Assembly (NCBI RefSeq): GCF_025244765.1 | Contig: NZ_CP104209.1 | Span: 1-64,000 of the forward strand | Reading direction: 5' to 3' | Source: Empedobacter stercoris | Lineage (GTDB): Bacteria > Bacteroidota > Bacteroidia > Flavobacteriales > Weeksellaceae | Length of the DNA stretch: 64,000 nucleotides | Part shown: one piece after another, positions 2,669 through 64,000 of the stretch | How the letters are laid out: each line of letters begins with the position of its first letter | How positions within the stretch are numbered: position 1 is the stretch's first letter | Translations under genes and position numbers: made by a program | The notes under the pieces: model-generated | Databases searched by the model: none | What the model saw: the letters and a program-made list of their open reading frames with translations, nothing else | Told to the model about the DNA's origin: nothing

Positions 2669-2686
2669 AAATAAAATAGCCAACTT
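2669..2686 (+). terminator. Left arm of a terminator split by the IS150-group element
   Basis: The 18 bases here are the exact reverse complement of 4139-4156 on the far side of the insertion sequence. With the IS and one copy of the CCAT target duplication removed, they form an 18-bp stem with a CCAT loop, ending in TATTTTATTT. This is a typical intrinsic terminator for the methyltransferase transcript. Confidence 0.8.
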
Positions 2687-2690
2687 CCAT
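2687..2690. repeat. Target site duplication CCAT, left copy
   Basis: CCAT directly precedes the IS and is repeated at 4135-4138 directly after it. A 3-5 bp duplication is usual for IS3-family elements. In the uninterrupted site CCAT would be the loop of the terminator hairpin. Confidence 0.8.
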
Positions 2691-2695
2691 TACAC

Positions 2696-2733
2696 TGCCC
2701 CCAAAAAGTTAGACACTTTTGGGGGCATTTTTT
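2696..2733 (+). terminator. IS-borne terminator-like hairpin upstream of transposase orfA
   Basis: TGCCCCCAAAA (2696-2706) and TTTTGGGGGCA (2717-2727) form a perfect 11-bp stem with a 10-base loop, followed by six T and then the orfA ATG at 2734. This is the layout of an intrinsic terminator. It would stop transcripts entering from the upstream host gene and so limit transposase expression. It could equally hide the orfA start in read-through RNA. Confidence 0.7.
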
Positions 2734-3270
2734 ATGACAAGAAAAGTAAAATATGGTGTAGCATTTAAGTTACGCTGTGTGAAAGAAGTTTTAGAAAAAC
2801 ATCGAACAATACGTTCAATTAGTAAAAAAGAAAATATACATGCTTCTTTTTTAAAGAAATGGGTTTCTGATTATCATAATCAAGGAATTTCAGGTATAGA
2901 ACCTAAAAAAAACCAAACGTATAGCGTTGAATTTAAGTTGAAAGTTATTAAGACTATAACTAGTCAATATCTTAGTTTACGTGAAGCCAGAGTTAAATTT
3001 AATATTCCAAGTGAATCGGTTATTATAAAATGGCAAAAAGATTTTGCTACCTTTGGAATAGACGGATTAAAACCCAAACCAAAAGGCCGTCCCAAGACTA
3101 TGAGCACATCTAAAGGTAGACCTAAAAAATCGAAACAACCATTATCAAGAGAAGAAGAACTATTGTTGGAGATTGAACGTTTACGTTGTGAGAATGCACT
3201 CTTAAAAAAGTTCAATGCCTTAATTCAAGCCGAGGAAGAAAAACAAAAGAAACTTGGACGCAAGCCATAA
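2734..3270 (+). CDS. IS150-group transposase OrfA (helix-turn-helix subunit)
   Basis: OrfA of the IS3-family element is 178 residues from the ATG at 2734. An in-frame TTG at 2719 lies inside the terminal hairpin and is unlikely to be used. The protein has two tandem helix-turn-helix blocks (about residues 5-55 and 60-110), a basic linker rich in GRPK, and a C-terminal leucine-zipper-like stretch (LLLEIERLRCENALLKK) that in this family mediates oligomerisation. It differs from copy 2 at a few residues (for example Phe/Leu in the first helix-turn-helix). OrfB lies in the -1 frame and is open back into the end of orfA, so a programmed -1 frameshift on the A-rich tract near 3236-3252 probably makes the OrfAB transposase. 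Confidence 0.93.
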   Translation: MTRKVKYGVAFKLRCVKEVLEKHRTIRSISKKENIHASFLKKWVSDYHNQGISGIEPKKNQTYSVEFKLKVIKTITSQYLSLREARVKFNIPSESVIIKWQKDFATFGIDGLKPKPKGRPKTMSTSKGRPKKSKQPLSREEELLLEIERLRCENALLKKFNALIQAEEEKQKKLGRKP

Positions 3271-3320
3271 ATGAATTAAGGTCAGAATTTCATCTAAATT
3301 TACTTTTAGATTGTACACAT

Positions 3321-4100
3321 ATGGCTAGAAGCAGCTTTTACTATCATATTTCACGTAGTAAAACAGATAAATACGAGGAATTAAAACTTAAGATAAAATC
3401 CATTTATCATCAGCATAAAGGGCGATATGGCTATCGACGAATTACCGATGAATTAAGAAAATCAGGAACTATCATCAATCATAAAACTGTTCTTAAACTG
3501 ATGAATAGCTTAGGATTAAAGAGTTTGATTCGAAGAAAAAAATACAAATCTTACAAAGGAGAACAAGGAAAGATTGCACCAAACATCTTGCAAAGAGCAT
3601 TTAAGGCTGATAAACCCAACCAAAAATGGGTAACAGATGTTACCGAGTTTAAAGTAAAAGATAAAAAACTATATTTATCACCAATAATGGATCTGTACAA
3701 TCAAGAAATTATCAGCTATGAGTTAAGCGAACGACCTGTTTTTAATCAAGTAACTCAAATGCTTAAAAAGGCATTTAAAATAACGAAAGACACTAAAGAT
3801 TTGATATTACATTCAGATCAAGGATGGCAATATCAAATGAAACAATATCAGGCTTTATTAAATGAAAAAGGAATCATACAAAGTATGAGTAGAAAAGGAA
3901 ATTGCTTAGATAATGCTATTATCGAGAATTTCTTCGGAATACTGAAATCGGAACTATTTTATTTACAAAAATTTAATTCTATTGAAGAGCTAAAAAAAGA
4001 AATAAAACAATACATTTACTATTACAATAACGATAGAATAAAATCGAACTTAAATAAAATGAGCCCGATACAATATCGAACTCATTTTTATAATTATTAA
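3321..4100 (+). CDS. IS150-group transposase OrfB (DDE integrase domain)
   Basis: OrfB supplies the DDE catalytic core of the IS3-family transposase. The acidic residues are visible in WVTDVTEF, LHSDQGWQYQ and IENFFGILKSE. An N-terminal HTH_21-like part (GRYGYRRITDELR) precedes the core. The 259 residues counted from the ATG at 3321 are identical to those of copy 2. The frame is open upstream to about 3240, reading through INELRSEF and LLLDCTHMARSSFYY, so the native product is probably an OrfAB fusion made by -1 frameshifting rather than free OrfB. There is no sign of inactivation. Confidence 0.95.
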   Translation: MARSSFYYHISRSKTDKYEELKLKIKSIYHQHKGRYGYRRITDELRKSGTIINHKTVLKLMNSLGLKSLIRRKKYKSYKGEQGKIAPNILQRAFKADKPNQKWVTDVTEFKVKDKKLYLSPIMDLYNQEIISYELSERPVFNQVTQMLKKAFKITKDTKDLILHSDQGWQYQMKQYQALLNEKGIIQSMSRKGNCLDNAIIENFFGILKSELFYLQKFNSIEELKKEIKQYIYYYNNDRIKSNLNKMSPIQYRTHFYNY

Positions 4101-4134
4101 TTTTTAATCTGTCCAAACTTTTGGGTGCAGTCTA

Positions 4135-4138
4135 CCAT
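4135..4138. repeat. Target site duplication CCAT, right copy
   Basis: This is the second copy of the 4-bp duplication flanking IS copy 1; its partner is at 2687-2690. Confidence 0.8.
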
Positions 4139-4156
4139 AAGTTGGCTATTTTATTT
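4139..4156 (+). terminator. Right arm of the split terminator
   Basis: AAGTTGGCTATTTTATTT is the exact reverse complement of 2669-2686. It is the 3' arm and T-rich tail of the original terminator, now separated from its partner by 1,444 bp of IS plus the duplicated CCAT. Confidence 0.8.
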
Positions 4157-4402: not shown

Positions 4403-4429
4403 TCTTCCCTTAACTAGCTACATTCAAAA

Positions 4430-5373
4430 CTAATGATTCCACTGATTATTACTACAATTATCTTGCTGAAATGTTGGAAATTCACTTGTATTCGGTTTAT
4501 TTATTTTTCCATATTTCAACAAAAACTCGTGCGGAGTAAGGTATCCGAGGCTTGCGTGCGGTCTCTCATTGTTATACATCCACATCCAAGCTTGAAAGAA
4601 TATGTTGAATTGCTTGATTGTTGAAAACTAAAACAATCCAAAACTTCTTGTCTAAATGTACGATTAAAACGTTCGATCAAACTATTTTGCGTCGGTTGAC
4701 CAGGCTGAATATAAATCAATTCAATAGACTGATTATGATACCAATCTTTTAGTGCGTTTGCAATAAATTCTGGTCCATTATCGACTCTTATTCGCTCTGG
4801 TTTTCCTCTCCATTGAATTAAATTCTCAAGTTCTCTTACTGCTCGTCCTGAAGGTAAACTTGTATCGATACAAATACTCAAAATTTCTCGATTAAAATCG
4901 TCTATAATATTCAAACTTCTCACGCTTTTTCCGTTTTCTAAACTATCACGCATGAAATCCATACTCCACGTTACATTTGGATAAATCGGACGTAAAAGTG
5001 GCTCTTTAATCCTTGCAGGAAGTCTTTTTTTACGTAGGTTAAGTTTCATCGAAGTGTAAATTCGATAAACTCGTTTATGGTTCCATGAATAGTTCAACTT
5101 TCTAAGCCGATGAAACATCTACCAAAAAACCCATGTTTTGTTTAAATCCGCTAATGAAGAGAGTTCTTGAATGATTAAATCGTCCTGATTGTTACGTTTG
5201 GGACGATAATAAAACACCGATGTCCTGATACAAAACAATATACAAGCCTGACGAAGACTGAGTTTAAATTCCTCGCGAGAAAAATCAACCAGTTCGCGTT
5301 TTTCGTCAGGCGTTAGAGTTTTTTTTCGATAACAGTTTTTAAACCGTATTTTGAAGGGTTGATTCTGCAACAA
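4430..5373 (-). pseudogene. IS407/IS2-like transposase OrfB, broken by nonsense and frameshift
   Basis: The DDE transposase frame carries [19 protein letters not shown] and [16 protein letters not shown], the three catalytic blocks. An in-frame TAG at 5119-5121 splits it after ...NKTWVFW. Near 4625 one A seems to be lost from a CAA-ACA-ATC run: in the shifted frame the usual C terminus [20 protein letters not shown] reappears and runs to a TAG at 4430-4432. Both lesions are inferred from family-like sequence resuming in the right place. No active transposase is expected. Confidence 0.85.
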
Positions 5374-5578
5374 TCTTTTTATATTGGACTAATTCTTTCT
5401 CCATTTCTTTTAACTGTTTGAGTTGATTAGCATCCATTCCCGAATATTTACTCTTCCATTGGTAAAAAGTCGGTTGACTGATTCTGTATTCACGACAAAT
5501 TTCCAAAACGGTTTTGCCTTTGTCCTGTTCAGAGATAATCTTGATGATTTGTACTTCTGAAAATTTGCTTTTTTTCAT
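5339..5578 (-). pseudogene. IS407/IS2-like transposase OrfA, C-terminal frameshift
   Basis: The 79-residue product starts MKKSKFSEVQIIKIISEQ and has the expected helix-turn-helix (LEICREYRISQPTFYQWKSKY). It ends early at ...STLQNTV. One frame over, the sequence continues to VIEKKL and a stop, the normal end of this OrfA group, so a single-base loss near 5338 probably truncated it. Upstream lies the IS terminal repeat at 5626-5637. It is a remnant of a dead element. Confidence 0.75.
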
Positions 5579-5637
5579 ACTTCATAATTTAAAAAATATT
5601 CTACTTTTATGCGTAGCTTTTTTTGGGGAAGATTACA

Positions 5638-10825: not shown

Positions 10826-10866
10826 TACACTGCCCCCAAAAGTGTCTAACTTTTTGGGGCTGTGTA
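10826..10866. repeat. Solo IS-end palindrome (miniature element or terminator)
   Basis: This 41-bp near-palindrome runs from TACACTGCCCC to GGGGCTGTGTA. Bases 10831-10859 (TGCCCCCAAAAG...TTTTTGGGG) are identical over 29 positions to the reverse complement of the left end of the 1,444-bp IS, yet no transposase is attached. It therefore looks like a stand-alone IS end or two left ends fused head to head. It sits where the terminator of the upstream flavoenzyme gene would be expected, but no T run follows. Confidence 0.75.
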
Positions 10867-61575: not shown

Positions 61576-61583
61576 AAGAACCT
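61576..61583 (-). terminator. Distal arm of the ribD terminator split by IS copy 2
   Basis: AAGAACCT here pairs with AGGTTCTT at 63039-63046 across the IS. On the minus strand the T run lies immediately beyond this arm, so the original hairpin AAGAACCT...AGGTTCTT plus TTTTTTT was the terminator of ribD. Confidence 0.75.
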
Positions 61584-61589: not shown

Positions 61590-61594
61590 TACAC

Positions 61595-61632
61595 TGCCCC
61601 CAAAAAGTTAGACACTTTTGGGGGCATTTTTT
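61595..61632 (+). terminator. IS-borne terminator-like hairpin, copy 2
   Basis: TGCCCCCAAAA (61595-61605) and TTTTGGGGGCA (61616-61626) form a perfect 11-bp stem followed by T6 and the orfA ATG at 61633, as in copy 1. Confidence 0.7.
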
Positions 61633-62169
61633 ATGACAAGAAAAGTAAAATATGGTGTAGCATTTAAGTTACGCTGTGTGAAAGAAGTTTTAGAAAAACA
61701 TCGAACAATACGTTCAATTAGTAAAAAAGAAAATATACATGCTTCTTTATTAAAGAAATGGGTTTCTGATTATCATAATCAAGGAATTTCAGGTATAGAA
61801 CCTAAAAAAAACCAAACGTATAGCGTTGAATTTAAGTTGAAAGTTATTAAGACTATAACTAGTCAATATCTTAGTTTACGAGAAGCCAGAGTTAAATTTA
61901 ATATTCCAAGTGAATCGGTTATTATAAAATGGCAAAAAGATTTTGCTACCTTTGGAATAGACGGATTAAAACCCAAACCAAAAGGCCGTCCCAAGACTAT
62001 GAGCACATCTAAGGGTGGACCTAAAAAATCGAAACAACCATTATCAAGAGAAGAAGAACTATTGTTAGAGATTGAACGTTTACGTTGTGAAGTTGCACTC
62101 TTAAAAAAGTTCAATGCCTTAATTCAAGCCGAGGAAGAAAAACAAAAGAAACTTGGACACAAGCCATAA
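61633..62169 (+). CDS. IS150-group transposase OrfA, copy 2
   Basis: This 178-residue OrfA is nearly identical to the one in copy 1: differences include SLLKK for SFLKK, KGGPKK for KGRPKK, CEVALLKK for CENALLKK and a C-terminal GHKP for GRKP. All are single amino acid changes and leave both helix-turn-helix blocks and the zipper intact. It starts at the ATG right after the terminal hairpin. OrfB follows in the -1 frame and would be produced as OrfAB by frameshifting. Confidence 0.93.
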   Translation: MTRKVKYGVAFKLRCVKEVLEKHRTIRSISKKENIHASLLKKWVSDYHNQGISGIEPKKNQTYSVEFKLKVIKTITSQYLSLREARVKFNIPSESVIIKWQKDFATFGIDGLKPKPKGRPKTMSTSKGGPKKSKQPLSREEELLLEIERLRCEVALLKKFNALIQAEEEKQKKLGHKP

Positions 62170-62219
62170 ATGAATTAAGGCCAGAATTTCATCTAAATTT
62201 ACTTTTAGATTGTACACAT

Positions 62220-62999
62220 ATGGCTAGAAGCAGCTTTTACTATCATATTTCACGTAGTAAAACAGATAAATACGAGGAATTAAAACTTAAGATAAAATCC
62301 ATTTATCATCAGCATAAAGGGCGATATGGCTATCGACGAATTACCGATGAATTAAGAAAATCAGGAACTATCATCAATCATAAAACTGTTCTTAAACTGA
62401 TGAATAGCTTAGGATTAAAGAGTTTGATTCGAAGAAAAAAATACAAATCTTACAAAGGAGAACAAGGAAAGATTGCACCAAACATCTTGCAAAGAGCATT
62501 TAAGGCTGATAAACCCAACCAAAAATGGGTAACAGATGTTACCGAGTTTAAAGTAAAAGATAAAAAACTATATTTATCACCGATAATGGATCTGTACAAT
62601 CAAGAAATTATCAGCTATGAGTTAAGCGAACGACCTGTTTTTAATCAAGTAACTCAAATGCTTAAAAAGGCATTTAAAATAACGAAAGACACCAAAGATT
62701 TGATATTACATTCCGATCAAGGATGGCAATATCAAATGAAACAATATCAGGCTTTATTAAATGAAAAAGGAATCATACAAAGTATGAGTAGAAAAGGAAA
62801 TTGCTTAGATAATGCTATTATCGAGAATTTCTTCGGAATACTGAAATCGGAACTATTTTATTTACAAAAATTTAATTCTATTGAAGAGCTAAAAAAAGAA
62901 ATAAAACAATACATTTACTATTACAATAACGATAGAATAAAATCGAACTTAAATAAAATGAGCCCGATACAATATCGAACTCATTTTTATAATTATTAA
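62220..62999 (+). CDS. IS150-group transposase OrfB, copy 2
   Basis: The 259 residues are identical to OrfB of copy 1, with only silent base changes, so purifying selection or very recent copying holds. The DDE residues in WVTDVTEF, LHSDQGWQYQ and IENFFGILKSE are intact, and both copies should be able to transpose. The frame is open upstream to the end of orfA. Confidence 0.95.
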   Translation: MARSSFYYHISRSKTDKYEELKLKIKSIYHQHKGRYGYRRITDELRKSGTIINHKTVLKLMNSLGLKSLIRRKKYKSYKGEQGKIAPNILQRAFKADKPNQKWVTDVTEFKVKDKKLYLSPIMDLYNQEIISYELSERPVFNQVTQMLKKAFKITKDTKDLILHSDQGWQYQMKQYQALLNEKGIIQSMSRKGNCLDNAIIENFFGILKSELFYLQKFNSIEELKKEIKQYIYYYNNDRIKSNLNKMSPIQYRTHFYNY

Positions 63000-63033
63000 T
63001 TTTTAATCTGTCCAAACTTTTGGGTGCAGTCTA

Positions 63034-63036: not shown

Positions 63037-64000
63037 TAAGGTTCTTCATTATCTAATCTATTTTCGAAAATATTTAATTCATCATTCAAAAAACGATGTT
63101 TTTCAGTTCGTATTCCTTTTAAGCGTGGTGCTAAAATTCCTTCATTCCAAATGGTATCAGAACTTAAGATTCTTGCTTCATCCCACAAATTGGCATCAAT
63201 AAAATGTTGAATTGTATCGCATCCACCTTCAACAATCAGAGATTGAATATTATTTTCATATAAAAAGTTCATAATAGGCGGTAATATTGGTTGCGAAAAA
63301 TCCAATTGGATAAGGTTTAAATTTTCTTCTGATGAATTTTCAAGTGAATTAAAAATAACCGTAGGTTGAGTCTGATCAAACAAATGAAAACTTCTCGGGA
63401 TAGCTAAATTTTTGTCAATCGCAATTCTCAACGGATTATTCCCAGTCCAAAGTCTTGAGTTTAATTGTGGATTATCAATTAAAGCTGTGTTTTTTCCAAC
63501 CAAAATAGCTTGTTCTTCCGTTCGCCATTTATGTACCAATTGTTTGGTGTATTGATTGGTAATCCACAATTGTATATCATCACGTCCGATGTATCCATCT
63601 TCAGTTTGTGCCCATTTTAGGATAATGTATGGACGTTTTTTTTGATGAAATGTAATAAAACGCTTATTAAGGTTGATGCATTCTTTTTCTAAAACACCTA
63701 ATGTCACATCCACACCATTTTTTAGCAAACGTAAGTAACCTTGTCCATTTACTTTAGCAAACGGATCTAACGTTCCTATTACAACTTTCGGAATTTCTTT
63801 TTCAATAATCAAATCTGCACATGGAGGTGTTTTACCATGATGCGAACAGGGTTCTAATGTCACATATAAAGTACTTTCCTTTAATAATTCAGGATTTTTG
63901 ACTGAATTGATCGCGTTTACTTCTGCGTGAGGACCACCGTATTCAGATGTAAAACCTTCACCAATAATTTGATTGTTATGTACAATAATAGAACCAACAA
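63036..64000 (-). CDS. ribD: Bifunctional riboflavin biosynthesis deaminase/reductase RibD (5' end outside window)
   Basis: RibD performs the second and third steps of riboflavin synthesis: deamination of the pyrimidine and reduction of the ribosyl group. The frame is open to the window edge (base 64000), so the N terminus is missing. The zinc motif of the deaminase is visible as GGPHAEVNA and LEPCSHHGKTPPC; the reductase domain follows (about 95 onward from the GTG at 63863), with WAQTEDGYIG and ILVGKNTALIDNPQLNSR. The stop codon TAA is at 63036-63038, followed by the IS. Its terminator is split by the IS. Confidence 0.96.
   Translation of the reverse strand, partial: VGSIIVHNNQIIGEGFTSEYGGPHAEVNAINSVKNPELLKESTLYVTLEPCSHHGKTPPCADLIIEKEIPKVVIGTLDPFAKVNGQGYLRLLKNGVDVTLGVLEKECINLNKRFITFHQKKRPYIILKWAQTEDGYIGRDDIQLWITNQYTKQLVHKWRTEEQAILVGKNTALIDNPQLNSRLWTGNNPLRIAIDKNLAIPRSFHLFDQTQPTVIFNSLENSSEENLNLIQLDFSQPILPPIMNFLYENNIQSLIVEGGCDTIQHFIDANLWDEARILSSDTIWNEGILAPRLKGIRTEKHRFLNDELNIFENRLDNEEP
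63039..63046 (-). terminator. Proximal arm of the split ribD terminator
   Basis: AGGTTCTT pairs with AAGAACCT at 61576-61583. It overlaps the last codons of ribD. With the IS removed, the loop would be about 8 bases, followed by seven T on the minus strand. Confidence 0.75.

Follow-up and report, generated by a model that had tools for sequence, protein, structure and literature searches.

In the window (the whole stretch of 64,000 nucleotides of Empedobacter stercoris DNA that was analysed), a complete insertion sequence (IS) separates the two arms of what would otherwise be a single terminator hairpin. This raises the question of what brings such an element to so narrow a target: the shape of the terminator, its sequence, its transcription, or merely the survival of harmless insertions. 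To answer it, the element and its sites were compared with other copies in the host genome (G000), with a genome of the same species (G139), with relatives in other genomes and with other IS types.

The element and its two copies in the window

The features in the window are listed here by coordinates and strand.

2669..2686, plus: left (5') arm of the terminator hairpin that copy 1 interrupts, behind an RsmI-like gene, AAATAAAATAGCCAACTT; G139 has this arm intact
2687..2690, plus: target duplication CCAT, from the sequence exactly the hairpin loop
2691..4134, plus: IS copy 1, IS3 family, IS150 subgroup, 1444 bp, ends TA...TA
2691..2715, plus: left terminal inverted repeat (IRL), from a whole-genome pattern search
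2696..2733, plus: terminator-like hairpin, formed by the IRL with its complement and followed by T6, immediately upstream of the orfA ATG
2734..3270, plus: orfA, HTH transposase subunit, from open reading frame (ORF) and domain match
3321..4100, plus: orfB, DDE (rve) transposase, in the -1 frame with respect to orfA, with the open frame (302 codons) extending further upstream
4056..4088, minus: terminator-like hairpin in the last orfB codons, with a T-rich tail leftwards, facing transcription from the right
4110..4134, minus: right terminal inverted repeat (IRR), from a whole-genome pattern search
4135..4138, plus: second copy of the CCAT duplication, from the sequence
4139..4156, plus: right (3') arm of the terminator hairpin that copy 1 interrupts, AAGTTGGCTATTTTATTT
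10826..10866, no strand: palindromic mini-element of 41 bp that consists of just the IRL hairpin, with TA...TA ends
61576..61583, plus: left arm of the terminator hairpin interrupted by copy 2, AAGAACCT
61590..63033, plus: IS copy 2, 99% identical
63039..63046, plus: right arm of the terminator hairpin interrupted by copy 2, AGGTTCTT

The bases bear out the initial annotation in that the 18-base arms around copy 1 are exact reverse complements and that removal of the IS and one CCAT restores a stem with a CCAT loop, to which stem scoring assigns 19 pairs. The T-rich tail that it placed behind this stem is present as T runs but is weaker than claimed, as these lie mostly within the right arm, and beyond that arm TTTTTT follows only after five further bases. 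The empty site of copy 2 is predicted to be a hairpin with an 8-bp stem formed by its two arms and an 8-nt loop that contains the 3-bp duplication.

By sequence, the element belongs to the IS3 family and, within it, to the IS150 subgroup. Domain matches were obtained to Pfam rve (4.4e-26), HTH_21 and HTH_Tnp_1, OrfB is 57.8% identical to InsK of Escherichia coli IS150 over 258 amino acids (2e-115) and OrfA 26.5% identical to its IS150 counterpart, and the two overlapping frames, with orfB in the -1 frame, form the IS3/IS150-type arrangement. IS150 is also similar in length (1443 bp) and in its 3-bp duplication at most of the sites retrieved. Members of the IS3 family transpose by a copy-out/paste-in route via a circular intermediate. 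Target duplications of 3 or 4 bp, a further IS3/IS150 trait, flank 22 of the 24 host copies (4 bp in L001 and L010, 3 or 4 in L014, 3 in the others), and L008 and L020 have none. Terminal 5'-CA-3' is called generally conserved in PMC6211511 and is a typical rather than a defining trait; the host copies end in TA...TA and so lack it, many relatives start with TG and end with TA, and the most distant have TG...CA.

Insertion sites in the host, a conspecific genome and relatives

The host genome (3.07 Mb) carries 24 full copies that are 94-100% identical, and a pattern search for exact right ends also returned 24. Sites were scored as positive when a stem with a score of at least 11 enclosed the insertion in its loop of 3-16 nt, and the same test was applied to background points, with 'intergenic' meaning outside script-found ORFs of at least 90 codons. 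At this threshold, 20/24 copies are positive versus 4.5% of 8000 random intergenic points, a background that rises to 15% at score 8, and versus 1.1% of 4000 coding points; the view that loop insertion was unlikely by chance is thus upheld. When the insertion had to lie within 1.5 bp of the dyad axis, the figures were 20/24 and 1.23% of 59,081 intergenic positions (binomial P ~6e-35). The copies without a good hairpin are L008, L017, L020 and L021. By inspection, the stems of the 20 hairpin targets differ from one another, and the duplication touches the stem on at least one side in 16 of them and makes up the entire loop in 6. Mismatched flanks, in which the left side comes from one copy and the right side from another, also pass in 89 of the 552 combinations because terminators have A and T tracts in common, an effect of which the random-point background is independent. 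As to their distribution, the copies are absent (0/24) from 1.30-2.16 Mb of G000:C1, a stretch of 0.86 Mb opposite dnaA, and their mean distance from dnaA is below the uniform expectation (P ~0.007 by simulation).

Other IS types of the same genome served as controls, namely, a second IS3-type element (5 copies) and two elements that, from domain and frame size, we take to be IS30-like (5 copies) and IS1182-like (3 copies). None was found in a hairpin loop (0/5, 0/5 and 0/3, or 0/13), although the ends of the IS1182-like copies are less sure since these have no visible duplication. The second IS3-type element (L328-L332; G000:C1 1023114, 2306788, 2045533, 577440 and 846967; 3-bp duplications) makes a different use of terminators as landmarks: in 4/5 copies, it lies outside a terminator hairpin, at a nearly constant 24.5-30.5 bp from the axis and with the terminator to its right. 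A frame-broken IS3-like element right of copy 1 (window 4423-5590) has two relatives in the genome at 74-78%, and with only 3 divergent copies, it was left out of the controls.

The draft genome G139 consists of 70 contigs, in which two copies of the element are listed. When searched with the joined empty sites, it contained 16/24 whole, and the joins were read for all 16. Fourteen of these IS-free joins are predicted hairpins, including the site of copy 1 with its CCAT loop intact. The other two, L017 and L021 (the latter in a multi-copy region), are present without a hairpin and are therefore true exceptions. Eight sites were not found whole; for some of them, such as L020 and L015, a contig starts no more than 140 bases from a half site, and more IS copies may therefore hide in assembly breaks. 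Between G000 and G139, the terminator loop is exactly inverted at 3/14 IS sites (L010, L016, L024). The idea that IS insertion flips the loop was dropped, as the same inversion occurs at 3/18 IS-free terminators (26 queried, 8 without a usable match), and the loop of L023 is palindromic and uninformative. The loci of this comparison are L339-L368, L209, L213 and L284. Such inversions between conspecifics would fit the formation of DNA hairpins, with template switching among the other explanations.

For the relatives, the best 80 of 546 matches were kept. Of 110 loci examined overall, 80 had both ends and flanks, and removal of 5 own or conspecific copies and 3 duplicates left 72 to be scored, with the background taken from the host genome. 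A strict test at 1.5 bp from the axis, which gave 40/72 among the matches listed, was replaced by the test of whether the loop holds the insertion, because loops can be off centre and larger. By the latter, 53/72 of the matches listed are positive, i.e., 2/2 at 97% identity, 25/28 at 74-85%, 21/32 at 70-74%, 0/5 at 66-70%, and 5/5 at 60-66%. With a target duplication the count among these matches is 44/50 and without one 9/22. Positive loci among the matches listed include Flavobacterium, Chryseobacterium and bins labelled Sphingobacteriaceae, Bacteroidales and Clostridia, whereas the misses include the single Pedobacter locus scored (L124), the two from Sphingobacterium (L088, L140) and those from Taibaiella (L100) and Bacteroides (L136); the bin labels Bifidobacterium, Rhizobium, Nitrotoga and Iodobacter are metagenome assignments and were not trusted.

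In six other genomes of the family, with at most 13 candidates scored per genome (G111 and G089 may hold more copies), 46/51 listed copies are in loops, as are 41/44 of those with a duplication, versus 3.4% of 4800 intergenic points from five of these genomes (binomial P ~5e-62). Seventeen of the 72 relatives also belong to this set, and the remaining 55 score 38/55 among the matches listed. The comparison of IS-free sites with random intergenic points that the initial annotation had proposed is thus strongly positive in the host and the six genomes, and positive with gaps across the 72 relatives listed.

At the level of sequence, insertion is within the loop, the 3-4 duplicated bases either make up the loop or mostly touch the stem, and the empty sites are intact predicted hairpins. 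The loop habit holds in several genomes and in many relatives.

Terminator-like hairpins in the element and in mini-elements

The element itself carries a hairpin inside each end. On the left, the architecture consists of the IRL, its complement, usually T5-6, and then the orfA start, and the predicted hairpin is terminator-like in 47/51 distinct left ends versus 43/4000 random windows; the negatives are L129 (its end probably miscalled), L136, L148 and L166. On the right, the hairpin overlaps coding sequence, and codon shuffling gave z < -2 in 46/50 relatives versus 15/200 internal windows, with L075 (z -1.83), L085 (-1.98), L136 and L166 as misses. The 3' sequence of L075, a near miss (9/200 shuffles as low), is also that of the window element. 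Covariation across the right-end stem was 0.236 versus 0.124 (sd 0.010) after shuffling, with 0/500 shuffles as high and 0.047-0.153 when the stem was slid, and 8/14 pairs have changes on both sides; a count of further pair types, which 46/500 shuffles reached, is less telling. The minus-strand hairpin at the right end is maintained by codon choice. A single relative, L136, is without both end hairpins and lies outside any hairpin target, which fits but as a single case proves nothing.

The end hairpins would function as terminators and, as they face opposite ways, elements may replace the terminator that they split. In E. coli IS150, the minus-strand hairpin in the last orfB codons is likewise found (-24.6 kcal/mol), but the left-end hairpin is weak (-8.2 kcal/mol) and without a T run. 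In some Amoebophilus IS, hairpins in the first 50 bp are read as expression control (PMC3196728). The remark of the initial annotation that the insertion is harmless to genes fits both the terminator-like hairpins at the two IS ends and the position of 14/24 copies between convergent ORFs.

The IRL hairpin also occurs alone. Two mini-elements, of 41 and 43 bp, were seen in the host genome (window 10826-10866; G000:C1:1663849), and further ones of 41-43 bp in L039, L031 (incomplete at one end) and L049 (around 1490-1545). They span three genera, and the flanks of some are A-rich and T-rich. When 60 genomes were searched for mini-elements by pattern, the single match was in the host genome, and others seen elsewhere were missed.

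What the element recognises

It is probable, in our judgement, that this is an IS150-subgroup element whose transpososome integrates in the loops of intrinsic-terminator hairpins. The terminator palindrome would be extruded in DNA as a hairpin or cruciform, and the circular IS intermediate would attack both strands at or near the stem-loop junctions, whereby a few loop bases would become the target duplication. Shape, i.e., a paired stem capped by a small AT-rich loop, would be recognised more than sequence. The element's own terminator-like hairpins, inside both ends and facing incoming transcription, may then replace the split terminator and may also keep the transposase gene free from read-through transcription. 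As the initial annotation surmised, a hairpin or cruciform as target is supported by the positive loop test together with the 0/13 of the three other IS types; that DNA structure rather than symmetric sequence is the thing recognised is supported, not proven.

The explanation that comes nearest, although we think it unlikely, is recognition of double-stranded DNA, in which a transposase dimer would read a dyad of A tract and T tract some 8-12 bp to each side of an AT-rich centre and terminators would merely supply the motif. In the left arm and its mirror, the 20 targets have A 8, 9 and 10 positions from the loop in 97, 93 and 100% of cases, versus 58, 64 and 74% in 104 other strong hairpins, and this greater regularity of A tracts 8-12 nt from the loop means that recognition may be partly by sequence. 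Two exceptions that do have a duplication point the same way, as L021 has both tracts without pairing and L017 has one tract. However, among the 824 intergenic positions where A and T tracts are spaced as in the targets, only 224 are hairpins and 600 are not, whereas 16/17 host insertions bearing both tracts are in hairpins, with a single unpaired one, and 25/30 insertions of relatives without the tracts (among the matches listed) are still in hairpins. Pairing therefore counts in its own right.

Coupling to transcription, with the target marked by a paused polymerase, a nascent RNA hairpin or an R-loop at the terminator, is quite improbable. The targets are terminator-like and at least one neighbouring ORF points at 23/24 copies, but in the tandem contexts (9 of the 24, next to 14 convergent and 1 divergent, by mechanical ORF calls with some ORFs short) the element is oriented 5 times with and 4 times against transcription, a small test because most sites are convergent and the ORF calls mechanical. 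Moreover, all 20 hairpin sites have the duplication no more than 1.5 bp off the dyad axis, with shifts to both sides. With respect to replication, 13/24 copies are oriented with the fork if the origin is at dnaA. Random insertion followed by the survival of copies where nothing is broken is hardly credible, and both the register and the controls from the same genome already contradict it as a full account: convergent ORFs flank 14/24 copies, but loops are 1-5% of intergenic positions, and selection would neither put 16/20 duplications against the stem nor leave other IS types of the genome at 0/13.

Since pairing matters beyond the A and T tracts and there is no bias of direction with transcription or replication, we infer that recognition of the extruded hairpin or cruciform is the best-supported mechanism. 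The balance of directions and the stem-abutting duplication would likewise fit strand transfer into such a structure. Counted against loop targeting are the relatives at 66-70% identity (0/5 of the matches listed), the misses in Pedobacter, Sphingobacterium, Taibaiella and Bacteroides, the relatives without a duplication (9/22 of the matches listed) and the namesake of the subgroup. E. coli IS150 differs in that strong hairpins are present at only 3/11 distinct sites, versus 5.7% of 3839 intergenic positions in one 50-kb stretch (score at least 12, loops to 30 nt; 13 sites from MG1655 and 12 records, two of them repeats). Several of its copies (L185, L219-L230) adjoin type I toxin-antitoxin loci (hok or ibs), and GAGGC often stands next to the duplication.

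The targeting of palindromes by transposition is already known. IS1397 and ISKpn1 target REP palindromes and may insert within the loop. These two IS3-family elements are described as specific for REP sequences, a preference for which their transposases appear to be responsible, and ISPsy8 is a further IS3-family case (PMC1525189). They are the closest precedent in family and palindromic target, but they use one repeated REP/PU family per host, whereas the targets of the window element do not belong to one such family and are unique terminators in several genera. Group IIC introns are guided to intrinsic terminators or other stem-loops (PMC7923331). They are retroelements that insert after the stem-loop (the attC type after or into it), whereas the window element has a DDE transposase and inserts inside the loop and is thus not of this kind. 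No IS3-family insertion into terminator loops is described in the literature searched, which covers few subscription titles (PMC1525189, PMC6211511, PMC5771124, PMC3196728 and PMC7923331 are among it). The terminator-loop form would accordingly be new, strongly supported as a pattern and moderately as a mechanism.

Whether a whole clade of transposases of the IS150 type, from Bacteroidota and some Clostridia, performs structure-guided and largely sequence-independent integration into extruded terminators, with the loop as duplication and its own inward-facing pair of terminators as compensation, seems to us about evenly balanced, a lower standing given because the relatives at 66-70% identity score 0/5 among the matches listed.

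Hundreds of genes are followed by an intrinsic terminator. For the host genome, the number of strong intergenic hairpins is estimated at about 800, from 104 in 400 kb. The element makes terminators places of IS concentration, where annotation and termination need rechecking. If they are found by shape, they would offer a target that is independent of the host and non-disruptive, a universal safe harbour; the in vivo extrusion of hairpins at terminators would become testable through insertion mapping, and the element could guide tools for safe-site DNA insertion. The findings suggest an element that recognises shape and spreads without breaking genes.
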